A DNA stretch of 64,000 nucleotides, taken from assembly GCF_015840915.1 (NCBI RefSeq), contig NZ_CP060398.1, positions 186,001-250,000 on the forward strand, read 5' to 3'. Below the pieces are notes generated by a model. The model saw nothing but the letters and a program-made list of their open reading frames with translations. It had not been told where the DNA came from and made no database searches. The translations under genes were made by a program, and so were the position numbers. This document shows positions 2,689 to 6,271 of this stretch, piece by piece. The DNA comes from Synechococcus sp. CBW1002 (GTDB lineage Bacteria > Cyanobacteriota > Cyanobacteriia > PCC-6307 > Cyanobiaceae). Position 1 is the first letter of the stretch. Every line of letters starts with the position of its first letter.

Positions 2689-3774
2689 TCAAGCGAGGCG
2701 CCCCAGGGGCCGGCGCAGGCTGGCAGGGTCGATCCCCTCCCGCAGAGCCAGCACCAGACCAGCCGCTTCGGCGTAGGTCGTCACCTCCAGCACCTCAAGG
2801 CCCAGCGCCGCCCCGTCGACCGCCAGCACACAGGGATTGCCCCGCACGGCGATCACCGGGACCCCCCGCTCCGCGCAGGCCAGAACAGCTTCCCCCCCCA
2901 GGGCCATCGCCGGCGCCACCACCGCACCGATGTCCGCGGCGCGGATCAGGCCGGCCGCCCTGGAGGCAGCCGGTTCGCTCACCAGATCGGGGGCCCGGCT
3001 CAGGCCCACCAGAACGCAGGGCAGGAAGGTGTGGCCCAGCTCCTCCGCCGCGGCCCGCGGATCAAGGCTGGGATCGAGGGGCAGCGGCGCCAGGGCCGGA
3101 GCGTGGGCGCAGGGGCAACCCAGATGACGACTGAGCAGATGGCTGATCACGGCCTCGGCACCGGCCAGCCCATCGACCCCCGCCCCCTGGCGGTAGGCCG
3201 CCAGGGCTTCACTCTCGGGCTCATCGGGGAAACGGGCCACCACGGCGATCGCCGTGGCCCCGGCCGCCACCAGCTGCTCTCCCGCCCGCAGCAGCAGATC
3301 CGGGTGCGCCAGGCTGCCCCAGCTGGCACCACTGGGGCCAAGCGACAGGCTCACCTGCAGCGGTGCCTCGGTGGTGCGCACCGGGCCGATCGCCAGGCCA
3401 AGGCTGGCGCGGCAGGCATCGGCCGCCTGCAGATGGCGCTGACACAGGGGCTCCTCGATGCCGGCATCCAGCAGCAGACCTACCCGCCGCGCCGGAACCG
3501 GCGCCAGGGCCAGCTCACCGGCAGCGAATCGATTCAGGCTCCAGCCCTCCACGTAGTGCAACCGTGGATCGCTCCAGTAGAGCGCCGCCGCGTTCATCAC
3601 GTTGGGATGGGTGATCAGGCAGCCACTGGCGGCGGCGAGCAGCCGGGCCGCCGGCAGGCCATCGCCCGCGTAGCCGCCCACGGCACAGCCCACGCCGGTG
3701 GGGATCACCAGAAGGGTGGGCAGCGGCGGCGCCGCACAGCCGCTCAACACGCCGGTTTGGTGCTCAACAGCCAA
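2689..3774 (-). CDS. DUF3326 family protein
   Basis: A 361-aa protein matching the cyanobacterial/plastid DUF3326 family from memory. Recognisable stretches are LLVIPTGVGCAVGGYAGD near the N-terminus, LITHPNVMNAAALYW, PSGASWGSLAHPDLLL, AIAVVARFPDE, GVDGLAGAEAVISHLL and FLPCVLVGLSRAPDL. No biochemical role is known to me. It is the last gene of a minus-strand cassette and overlaps the upstream 67-aa gene by 31 nt, which suggests translational coupling. No signal peptide or clear membrane segment is evident. The start is the ATG just before the family homology. Confidence 0.8.
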   Translation of the reverse strand: MAVEHQTGVLSGCAAPPLPTLLVIPTGVGCAVGGYAGDGLPAARLLAAASGCLITHPNVMNAAALYWSDPRLHYVEGWSLNRFAAGELALAPVPARRVGLLLDAGIEEPLCQRHLQAADACRASLGLAIGPVRTTEAPLQVSLSLGPSGASWGSLAHPDLLLRAGEQLVAAGATAIAVVARFPDEPESEALAAYRQGAGVDGLAGAEAVISHLLSRHLGCPCAHAPALAPLPLDPSLDPRAAAEELGHTFLPCVLVGLSRAPDLVSEPAASRAAGLIRAADIGAVVAPAMALGGEAVLACAERGVPVIAVRGNPCVLAVDGAALGLEVLEVTTYAEAAGLVLALREGIDPASLRRPLGRLA

Positions 3775-3947
3775 ACCCCTTCGACCCTCAGCCCCCGATC
3801 AGGATCCACCGCCGTGATCGCCCAGCGCAGGGGCTCGGCGCCGCCGGGTTGGTTGGCCAGGGCGGCCCGGATCTGTGGCAGCAGAGCACCGGGCGCGGGC
3901 TTCAGCCACAACTCCAGTGGCTCGAGGCGCATGGGCGCAGCACTCAC
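3744..3947 (-). CDS. Small conserved-looking hypothetical protein (67 aa)
   Basis: I do not recognise a family. The 67-aa product begins MSAAPMRLEPLELWLKP and contains ALANQPGGAEPLRWAITAVD and GLRVEGVWLL, like a compact alpha/beta domain. The case for a real gene rests on context. Its GTG start (3947) overlaps the stop of the upstream ferredoxin gene as GTGA (3944-3947), and its 3' end overlaps the DUF3326 start by 31 nt. That tight same-strand packing is typical of coupled genes. Confidence 0.6.
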   Translation of the reverse strand: MSAAPMRLEPLELWLKPAPGALLPQIRAALANQPGGAEPLRWAITAVDPDRGLRVEGVWLLSTKPAC

Positions 3948-4306
3948 TTCTGAAACTGACCGAACTGAAGCTCGTAGAGCGCATCTTCCTGGCCGGCGAG
4001 CAGATCGAGGTCACTGCGGGGGAATGACACACACAACAGGGCATAGCCCTGCTCCTGCAGTTCCATCTTCACCCCCATGGCATCGGGCTGGTGCACACGG
4101 CCGCTGCGGAGCAGGGCTGCACAGGTGGTGCACACCCCCGAACAGCAGGAACTGGGCAAGGGCACGCCCGCTGCTTCAGCCGCGGCCAGCACGGTCTGGT
4201 CGGATCGGCACGGAAAACTGTGTCGCGTGCCGTCGATCTCGGCGGTGACGCTGAAGCTGGAGGAATCGGACACGAGCGGGATCGGACGGTCAGGCGCGCA
4301 GCCCAT
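3944..4306 (-). CDS. Plant-type [2Fe-2S] ferredoxin domain protein
   Basis: A 120-aa soluble electron carrier. The cluster motif is visible: SSCCSGVCTTCAALL gives the Cys-x4-Cys-x2-Cys spacing, and the fourth Cys is in GYALLCVSFPRSDL. It has an N-terminal extension of about 18 residues before the ferredoxin fold (FSVTAEIDGTRHSFPCRSDQ). ATG 4306 overlaps the end of the upstream oxygenase-like gene by 17 nt; a GTG 11 codons further in (at SDSSSF) is an alternative start. The neighbours suggest a dedicated electron donor for the adjacent oxygenase or DUF3326 protein rather than photosynthetic PetF; that role is inference. Confidence 0.85.
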   Translation of the reverse strand: MGCAPDRPIPLVSDSSSFSVTAEIDGTRHSFPCRSDQTVLAAAEAAGVPLPSSCCSGVCTTCAALLRSGRVHQPDAMGVKMELQEQGYALLCVSFPRSDLDLLAGQEDALYELQFGQFQK

Positions 4307-5087
4307 CTTCCCCGATGGCCTGCCACTGGCTGGGATGGGGCGCCAGGTACTCCGGCGGCCTGGAGCCAGGCGCGGCGGGCGGTGCGGTGAGCACAAAATC
4401 AAGACTGATCGAAAAGCGGTGATCGTCGGGCTCGTGGTTCTCCAGCACGGCGTGATCCAGGCAGGAGGGGAACAGCAGCAGCAGACCGGCTCGCGGCGCC
4501 ACATCCAGCCAGGCCGCATTGAAGGGAGAGGCGACGCCGATCGGGCCGCCATGGCCCACCGCCAGGCCGGGCACCAACTCGTTCACCTGGCGGACCGGGA
4601 AGAGACGCAGACAGCCATGCCGGCCACTGCCATCGCCATTGAGGTAATACACAGCACTGAGGTGTGCATTGGGATGGTGATGGCGGCCCACCACCTGCCC
4701 GGTCTCGCTCACCACCGGCCAACAGCGCTGCAGATGCAGCGCCACCGCGGAATCGCAGAAGCCCAGGGCGCCGAGGTAGGTCTGGGCATGGGCTGCGATC
4801 TCCGCCACCAGCGGCGCAAAGACCGGGTGGCGGTGCAACTGCCACACCCCATTGAGGTCTCCGGTCCAGGCGCAGCCGGGATCGGGGTTGGAGGCAGACT
4901 CACCGCGCAGCTCACAGATCGCCTGAATCTGCAGAGCCGTGTCGAGCGGATCGACCGCTCGCTGCACCTGACCGAGCGCCGTGGGGAAGAGGGCTTGGAT
5001 CTCCAGGCCTCCCAGTGGGGTCGCCCCATGTTGTGGGGATCCAGCATGAGGGCCAGATCCTGAAGCCACACCACCGTGCTCCCTCAT
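4290..5087 (-). CDS. Putative 2OG-Fe(II) oxygenase (TIGR02466-like)
   Basis: A 265-aa protein resembling the TIGR02466 group of double-stranded beta-helix proteins, related to 2-oxoglutarate/Fe(II) dioxygenases. Visible features are GRHHHPNAHLSAVYYLNGDG, whose His/Asn cluster is a plausible metal-site strand, and LFPSCLDHAVLENHEPDDH followed by RFSISLDFVL, whose distal His and Arg are plausible metal and 2OG ligands. The frame is open upstream to 5183, but ATG 5087 precedes the first family-like sequence. It is the first gene of the cassette with ferredoxin, the 67-aa protein and DUF3326. Substrate unknown. Confidence 0.72.
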   Translation of the reverse strand: MREHGGVASGSGPHAGSPQHGATPLGGLEIQALFPTALGQVQRAVDPLDTALQIQAICELRGESASNPDPGCAWTGDLNGVWQLHRHPVFAPLVAEIAAHAQTYLGALGFCDSAVALHLQRCWPVVSETGQVVGRHHHPNAHLSAVYYLNGDGSGRHGCLRLFPVRQVNELVPGLAVGHGGPIGVASPFNAAWLDVAPRAGLLLLFPSCLDHAVLENHEPDDHRFSISLDFVLTAPPAAPGSRPPEYLAPHPSQWQAIGEDGLRA

Positions 5088-5317: not shown

Positions 5318-6271
5318 TCAGGCCATCGCCACGGAGCCACCGACCACCTCGAGGATCTCCTGGGTGATCGCCGCCTGGCGGGCTTTGTTGTAGTCCAGCG
5401 TCAGGCTCTTGGCGAGGGCCTTGGCGTTGTCGCTGGCGTTGTTCATGGCCGTCATCCGGCTGGCCAGCTCAGACGCCGCCGCCTCCTGCAGGGAGCGGAG
5501 CAACTGATTCTCCAGATACAGAGGCAGCAGGGCATTGAGCAGCTGCTCCGGGCTCTGGTCGAAGACGATGTCCGAGGGGATCTCGGGCTGATCGTTGGCA
5601 ACACCGCCGGCATCCACAGCCACGGTCAGGCGACCCTCGCGGGTGGTGAGACGGAAGATCTCGTCCTCGGGGGTGGCGATTCCCTGGGGATCCAGTGGCA
5701 ACAGGGTCTGCACCACGGGCTTGGAACTGACCAGGTTGATGAACTTGGTGAAGATGATCTCGACCCTGTCGGTACTGGCAGAGAGAAACTCAGCCAGTAC
5801 TTCAGTTGCGATACCACCGGCTTCGCTGGCGTTGGGAACCTGCTCGAGACCGGTGAAGGTGGCCCGGATCGGGTAACTGCGATTCTGGAAATAGGTGATC
5901 GCCTTACGGCCGATCAACACCAGATCCACGCTGTAACCCTGCTGCTTGAGCTCAGCGAAGCGTTGCTCGGTGCGCTTGATGATGTTGGCGTTGTAGCCAC
6001 CGCAGAGACCACGATCGCCCGTCACAGACAACAGCGTGATCGTACGCAGATCGCGGGATTCGAGCAGGGGCGAATCGGCATCCTCGAAGCGCATGCGCGA
6101 CTGAAGATTCTCCAGCACCCGTGCCAGGCGATCGGCAAACGGACGGCTTCGCAACACCTGCTCCTGAGCGCGCCGCACTTTGGCGGCCGCCACGAGACGC
6201 ATGGCCTCGGTGATCTTGCGCGTGTTCTTGACCGAACTGATGCGGTCGCGGATTTCCTTGAGATTAGCCAT
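5318..6271 (-). CDS. atpG: ATP synthase gamma subunit
   Basis: Central rotor stalk of F1 (called atpC in some cyanobacterial nomenclature). The 317-aa protein starts [20 protein letters not shown] and ends [20 protein letters not shown], both hallmark helices of gamma. It carries the extra segment typical of cyanobacterial and plastid gamma, around [19 protein letters not shown], without a plant-type redox Cys pair. The frame is open into atpA, but the ATG at 6271 matches the universal start. It is the last atp gene, 13 bp after atpA, and is followed by a hairpin terminator. Confidence 0.97.

Follow-up and report, generated by a model that had tools for sequence, protein, structure and literature searches.

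The arrangement closest to the locus described here is 'cluster d', the gene order fed3; DUF650; DUF3326 reported for many cyanobacteria, which is marked in that source for Synechococcus WH8102, WH7803, CC9311 and PCC 7942, Nostoc PCC 7120 and others (Cassier-Chauvat and Chauvat 2014, PMC4284462). The ferredoxin type has been studied genetically in Synechocystis, with conflicting reports: fed3 (slr1828), which the 2014 table does not mark within cluster d, was described as essential (PMC4284462), whereas a complete fx3 deletion left autotrophic growth normal and impaired photomixotrophic growth (PMC8887894). DUF3326 is annotated in a potato gene (PMC13294368), and the passages that mention this domain in the literature searched give no function for it. 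Here, we report a computational analysis of a 64,000-nucleotide (nt) stretch (the window) of Synechococcus sp. CBW1002, whose genome is a single 3.85-Mb contig with a completeness of 99.74. On the minus strand of the window, between positions 2689 and 5087, four open reading frames (ORFs), confirmed in the ORF listing, encode in order of transcription a 2-oxoglutarate (2OG)-Fe(II) oxygenase-like protein, a [2Fe-2S] ferredoxin, a 67-residue protein and a DUF3326 protein. A first-pass annotation had taken these for a coupled redox or oxygenation system and had credited none of the four with an assigned role, a statement that is only partly right given the mutant data for the Fed3 ferredoxin type (PMC4284462, PMC8887894). 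We find that the conserved unit comprises the last three genes, that the final two form its core, and that the 67-residue protein is, as homology to fused relatives shows, a detached N-terminal domain of DUF3326.

Conservation of the gene order across cyanobacteria

The window and cluster d share the same order, with a plant-type ferredoxin gene followed by one gene and then by DUF3326. The middle gene of cluster d is called DUF650 (PMC4284462), whereas the 67-residue protein of the window has no match in Pfam-A or NCBIfam at E 0.1. Judged by position, the two are likely the same gene, for which DUF650 may just be a loose label. Profile matches confirm the first-pass identities of the other three proteins: the DUF3326 protein scores 479.8 bits with PF11805 (cut-off 25; model positions 2-337 of 337), the ferredoxin 61.6 bits with Fer2 (PF00111), and the oxygenase-like protein 67.1 bits with PF13759 (2OG-FeII_Oxy_5) and 73.8 bits with TIGR02466, both above cut-offs.

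We compared 140 DUF3326 neighbourhoods, hand-chosen rather than random and spanning 40 families; 41 came from the family of the window organism (the own family) and 99 from others. In 119 of the 140, representing 34 of the 40 families, the 67-residue gene shares the strand of DUF3326 and sits no more than 1 kb upstream of it, and the order of this pair is conserved far above chance expectation. The hidden Markov model of the 67-residue family was seeded by an LRW motif search within the same neighbourhoods, and alignment A1, which served for the genome-wide count and for the fusion tests below, consists of 80 rows picked on LRW, so that the invariance of this motif is by construction and no proof of a gene; two members, L142 (own family) and L207 (sister lineage), deviate from it. 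The ORF is nevertheless a real gene, as the A1 profile finds the family in 352 of 368 Cyanobacteriia genomes (313 of the 321 good ones). DUF3326 itself occurs in 357 of the 368 (317 of the 321). Both are absent from 7 genomes and just one is absent from 13 (Fisher p 2e-8, an association that assembly gaps and physical linkage also strengthen). Of four genomes sampled from genus g61, three (G090, G286 and G298, one of them 99% complete) match neither gene, a possible natural double loss when set against G078, which has both.

The pair is preceded by a ferredoxin related to that of the window in 80 of the 140 neighbourhoods (25 of the 41 from the own family and 55 of the 99 from other families), a count made solely by similarity to the window protein, which divergent ferredoxins may escape. 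Sixteen own-family neighbourhoods, from genomes of 1.3-2.4 Mb, retain atpG, the 67-residue gene and DUF3326 with neither the ferredoxin nor the 2OG gene. From these counts, the conserved unit is ferredoxin, 67-residue protein and DUF3326, and the latter two form its core. Beyond Cyanobacteriia, 83 of 87 genomes from the rest of the phylum also carry DUF3326; among 22 of these tested for the photosystem reaction-centre family Photo_RC, none matched (the Synechococcus elongatus control was positive), which rules out a photosynthesis-only role. Searches of plasmids and phages for DUF3326 gave no match.

The oxygenase-like gene behaves differently. In 18 of the 41 own-family neighbourhoods it is no more than 1 kb from DUF3326, and in 3 it is farther away; none of the 99 other neighbourhoods has it, although homologues are encoded by 91 of 368 genomes, 30 within the family and 61 outside it. 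We therefore rejected it as a member of the module; it is a local insertion, a passenger in this picocyanobacterial lineage. The first-pass annotation had proposed tracing the gene order through cyanobacteria, and would have counted an order unique to this genome as a refutation. The order is not unique: the three-gene cluster is conserved across cyanobacteria, and only the oxygenase gene falls outside it. In all 21 own-family homologues of the oxygenase, the distal His and Arg are invariant, and the first motif reads HHHPN and holds no acidic residue, the H-x-D/E motif being absent at the expected place. Its distant solved relatives are 2rg4 and 3bvc. Further relatives occur in phages, namely in cyanophages and a single pelagiphage (20 records, none reaching 60% identity), and a second, weaker homologue (57 bits) is encoded in the same genome far from the cassette (G000:C1:3289258-3289776).

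In a 51-row ferredoxin tree, whose bootstrap had not settled, FdC2-like rows form a clade of 8 (99/94) and PetF rows a clade of 14 (100/99). The remaining rows, which are not one resolved clade, include the window ferredoxin and all 25 sampled cluster neighbours; four unlabelled rows (L238, L241, L251 and L252) are, by their coordinates, ferredoxins of the clusters met again. The genome also encodes PetF (L228) and FdC2-like (L333) ferredoxins. The window protein ends in QFGQFQK, beyond which FdC2-type rows extend by about 13 residues, and an FdC2/Fed2 identity was rejected on tree separation and the shorter C terminus. By its cluster membership and the exclusion of PetF and FdC2, we class the protein as Fed3-like and as a candidate orthologue of Synechocystis slr1828.

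Relationship of the 67-residue protein to DUF3326

Twenty DUF3326 loci were fetched, 18 from other classes and the remaining 2 as second copies from genomes of Cyanobacteriia. In four loci outside Cyanobacteriia (L204-L207), a homologue of the 67-residue protein adjoins DUF3326 (20-32 bits, exceeded by 0 of 200 shuffles each). In L216 and L219, a homologous stretch, with LRW or VRW, forms the N terminus of DUF3326 itself (9.8 and 11.3 bits, again 0 of 200 shuffles each), and L216, L219 and L220 combined match the 67-residue family with a profile-profile probability of 92.5. In the other 14 loci, including all of those from the small-genome family f44, the 67-residue profile matches nothing beside or within DUF3326.

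Named genomes were also scanned with a paralogue as the query, and the best 80 of 246 relatives were taken. These added fusions from Acidobacteria (L279 and L290), Anaerolineae (L281) and Catenulispora (L287), for each of which 0 of 500 shuffles scored as well. For L280 (Proteobacteria), one shuffle was equally good, and none of 500 was with an iterated profile; this profile raised four further extensions (L257, L266, L270 and L280) above their shuffles and left the remainder below. L290 (16.0 bits) lies above every shuffle of the test, whereas L279 (13.0), L287 (12.8) and L281 (6.8) score under the best shuffle of another sequence (14.0). As one profile, L279, L280, L281, L287 and L290 match the 67-residue family with a probability of 95.5, compared with 0.3-0.6 for three control stretches of DUF3326. 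The DUF3326 proteins of the archaeal loci L284 and L288 and of the clostridial L283 have no N-terminal extension. Where it is fused, the domain is N-terminal, in agreement with the gene order, and four of the natural fusions lie beside non-ribosomal peptide synthetase (NRPS) genes. At the level of homology, these comparisons show the 67-residue protein to be a detached N-terminal domain of DUF3326. As other lineages carry the two fused, they are best read as one two-piece protein.

Paralogues from biosynthetic clusters (in Moorena bouillonii, Prochloron didemni, Streptoalloteichus hindustanus and others) share the DUF3326 core with the window; one of them, L222, is 31% identical to the window protein. 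They also have an N-terminal domain, the match of which to the 67-residue family is shown in L279, L281, L287 and L290. They differ from the window in being one chain, in biosynthetic-type clusters, rather than two separate genes. Thirty of the 80 scan loci were classed as paralogue or fused and 49 as comparison, L273 (3.3 kb, partial) being left out. A gene resembling pyridoxal phosphate (PLP)-dependent decarboxylases is near 24 of the 30, NRPS genes are near 6, and 28 have one or the other; L270 and L290 have neither in the fetched stretch. By comparison, a PLP match occurs in 1 of the 49 other scan loci, and PLP or NRPS genes in 0 of the 140 canonical neighbourhoods. In three examples checked with Pfam, the PLP genes belong to OKR_DC_1 or Orn_Arg_deC_N. 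The loci represent fewer than 30 independent events, spread over cyanobacteria, actinobacteria, an acidobacterium, an anaerolinean and proteobacteria, and their context suggests amino-acid-type chemistry by the DUF3326 unit.

Some of these clusters have a recognizable composition of their own. Prochloron didemni (L262), Anabaena sp. FACHB-1237 (L258, identical to L221) and Trichodesmium erythraeum (L272) share a recurring block comprising the DUF3326 paralogue, an OKR_DC-like PLP enzyme and two methyltransferases (one CmcI-like, by Pfam on L262), together with a further gene that we take to be cupin-like; the block looks like an undescribed small-molecule pathway. In Trichodesmium, the paralogue is divided over two ORFs and apparently broken (L272:5250-6317). 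In the Pseudonocardiales loci L275-L278 (Streptoalloteichus), the paralogue is near an Orn/Arg-decarboxylase-type PLP gene in all four, and L276 and L278 have an additional flavin adenine dinucleotide (FAD) amine-oxidase-like gene.

A 44-row alignment of DUF3326 from Cyanobacteriia contains many invariant residues, of which the glycine-rich PTG...GG.AGD stretch and E198, H215 and E235 are also invariant in a wider 16-row set. The AlphaFold2 model of DUF3326 has a mean predicted local distance difference test score (pLDDT) of 88.8 and a predicted template modelling score (pTM) of 0.89; that of the 67-residue protein (pLDDT 86.5, pTM 0.67) is predicted to adopt a strand-helix-strand-strand arrangement. 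A PDB sequence search with both proteins gave no convincing match, and Foldseek with the 67-residue model gave a best E of 1.4. VIA on DUF3326 reached a best Z of 8.9 over 104 residues, with top scores tied among LacI cores, Argonaute pieces, lumazine synthases and racemase-type proteins; the Asp/Glu racemase-like 2eq5 (Z 8.6 over 123 residues) is tied with the LacI cores and lumazine synthases.

Gene starts and surrounding features

The longest starts yield the overlaps of 17, 4 and 31 nt given by the first-pass annotation, and its arithmetic is correct. The ORFs and the 4-nt overlap stand, but the starts of relatives make the 17- and 31-nt overlaps disfavoured. For the 67-residue gene, GTG 3947, which forms the 4-nt GTGA overlap with the ferredoxin gene, is favoured because it is kept in the same-genus genome G001, unlike ATG 3932, which is lost. 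The best PF11805 stretch begins at residue 20 of the longest DUF3326 ORF. In five more distant relatives from the own family, the start precedes the PTG motif by 11-19 codons, which favours TTG 3747 with a 4-nt TTGA overlap; an alternative start at 3774 (TTG in the window, GTG in G001) is possible. G001 shares both candidate starts of the ferredoxin, ATG 4306 and GTG 4273, but relatives mostly begin at or close to the latter, with which a 16-nt gap separates the ferredoxin from the 2OG gene before it. The favoured starts (Table 1) thus give junctions of +16, -4 and -4 nt, and with chosen starts the 67-residue and DUF3326 genes overlap by exactly 4 nt in 13 of the 41 own-family cases. In each of the four genes, and in atpG as well, the window genome (G000) and G001 differ most often at the third codon position (codon positions 1/2/3: 11/9/57 in DUF3326 and 9/6/16 in the 67-residue gene).

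Table 1. Features of the locus, in window coordinates
Feature	Position	Strand	Remarks
DUF3326 gene (PF11805)	2689..3747	-	352 aa from favoured TTG 3747; Pfam, relatives, 44-row alignment, AlphaFold2
67-aa gene, GTG start	3744..3947	-	Family motif PLRWAIT...VEAVV; alignment, model, fused homologues
Plant-type [2Fe-2S] ferredoxin gene, Fed3-like	3944..4273	-	109 aa from favoured GTG 4273; Fer2, tree
2OG-Fe(II) oxygenase-like gene (PF13759/TIGR02466)	4290..5087	-	Lineage-specific neighbour outside the conserved module
atpG (ATP synthase gamma)	5318..6271	-	Upstream context gene, outside the module

The upstream ORF, which we take from its sequence to be atpG, has a homologue no farther than 3 kb upstream in 37 of the 41 own-family neighbourhoods, compared with 9 of the 99 others. 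On the other side of the locus, a convergent gene on the plus strand (1521-2681), presumably encoding alanine dehydrogenase, is separated by 7 nt (2682-2688) from the end of the DUF3326 gene; the ORF at 23-1474 is presumably NAD-synthetase-like. Several canonical DUF3326 genes elsewhere are followed by ORFs (for example L004:2681-3289 and L009:2495-3622) that we assume to resemble a CPBP-type membrane protease, in L009 along with what appears to be a DUF3531-like gene.

Proposed function and alternative explanations

On the sequence comparisons above, we put at about 60% the probability that the locus is a module of Fed3-type ferredoxin, 67-residue protein and DUF3326 after the atp operon, into which the 2OG gene was inserted in this lineage only, and that the pair is a two-piece protein acting as an amino-acid-type enzyme. 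The 67-residue protein and DUF3326 would probably be translated together through the 4-nt stop/start overlaps, and the two pieces, homologous to the fused form, would most likely assemble into one functional protein equivalent to it. The complex would be an enzyme with a small, probably amino-acid-like substrate: the paralogue context and the invariance of E198, H215 and E235 point to catalysis on a small metabolite, and the presence of paralogues in NRPS or PLP-decarboxylase gene clusters suggests its amino-acid-like nature. In oxygenic cyanobacteria, the neighbouring Fed3-like ferredoxin could, more speculatively, supply or remove electrons for the reaction; this exact ferredoxin gene cannot be obligatory, because 16 of the 41 own-family neighbourhoods keep the pair without it. 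A more far-reaching version is tentative: a hitherto unrecognized two-subunit enzyme, inherited from the ancestor shared by photosynthetic and non-photosynthetic Cyanobacteriota, might carry out a housekeeping reaction on an amino-acid-derived compound, with Fed3 wired in as its dedicated ferredoxin in oxygenic cyanobacteria and fused forms recruited on several occasions to NRPS and PLP-decarboxylase pathways of unrelated phyla.

Several observations weigh against the two-piece enzyme. The 67-residue gene is missing within 1 kb in 21 of the 140 neighbourhoods (among them L085, cut by a contig end, and L064, where it lies 4.3 kb upstream), and 60 have no such ferredoxin upstream. Of 19 extensions tested with the cyanobacterial profile, just 4 scored above every one of their own shuffles, and 15 did not. 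The extensions of cyanobacterial and actinobacterial paralogues (hhalign probabilities 22.9 and 2.5) and of L269-L271 (42.2) are not provably the same domain, nor are L217, L218 and L220 taken singly (0.1 for L217/L218). Because resemblance to a single query was the basis for choosing the 30 paralogue or fused loci, their link to PLP genes partly reflects shared descent. Residues D94, D192 and H203 of DUF3326, invariant in Cyanobacteriia, are not retained in the wider family. Finally, no catalytic fold was recognized (Foldseek best E 0.005, TM 0.2), a negative that, like that from VIA, covers the fold families among the matches listed.

These last two points would fit a non-enzymatic role, in which DUF3326 and the 67-residue protein serve as a binding or assembly factor, for instance for iron-sulfur or carrier proteins. 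Neither Foldseek nor VIA found an enzyme fold, the core weakly resembles LacI/periplasmic-binding proteins (Z 8.9, 104 residues), and NRPS clusters are known to include helper proteins such as MbtH; we nonetheless consider this unlikely, as the invariant PTG...GG.AGD stretch with E198, H215 and E235 resembles a ligand or active site. A comparably low probability attaches to operon hitch-hiking, by which the genes would share the promoter after the atp operon but no function. The frequent presence of atpG upstream in the own family, and the variable presence of the ferredoxin and 2OG genes, agree with this; the pair, however, persists in the other families, where atpG is rarely upstream, and natural fusions link its two members. 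Hitch-hiking may apply to the ferredoxin, and it is the best reading for the 2OG gene.

The coupled oxygenation system of the first-pass annotation, in which the 67-residue protein and DUF3326 would be partners and the ferredoxin would reduce the 2OG oxygenase or its product, is very improbable. The four genes are contiguous in the window, and the 2OG gene is no more than 1 kb from DUF3326 in 18 of the 41 own-family neighbourhoods; but its absence from all 99 outside neighbourhoods, in spite of homologues in 61 outside genomes, and the 16 own-family neighbourhoods that keep the pair with neither gene speak against an oxygenase with 'its own' ferredoxin. The chemistry does so as well, as 2OG oxygenases draw their electrons from 2-oxoglutarate and work without a ferredoxin, and this one reads HHHPN where H-x-D/E is expected. 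Hardly any credence remains for a chlorophyll-synthesis cassette in which the ferredoxin would be FdC2/Fed2, the donor of Mg-protoporphyrin cyclase, to which FdC2 has been linked (PMC8408499). The C-terminal ELQFGQ recalls the FdC2 tail, but this reading is largely refuted by the tree, which places the FdC2-like clade apart from the window ferredoxin; moreover, the genome has a distinct FdC2-like gene (L333), and DUF3326 is present in genomes without photosystem genes.

The three-gene order is already published as cluster d (PMC4284462); the available text of that paper does not describe the fusion, the spread beyond Cyanobacteriia or the 2OG insertion. In the main texts of open-licence papers, we did not find the domain relationship, the spread beyond photosynthesis or the biosynthetic-cluster fusions. 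DUF3326 is near-universal in the sampled cyanobacteria, and its separate front piece means that studies of DUF3326 alone may miss half of the protein. Relatives in biosynthetic clusters offer tractable organisms and chemistry for finding the reaction, and with them a first functional lead for DUF3326. The link to Fed3 would also give a poorly understood ferredoxin a candidate client.

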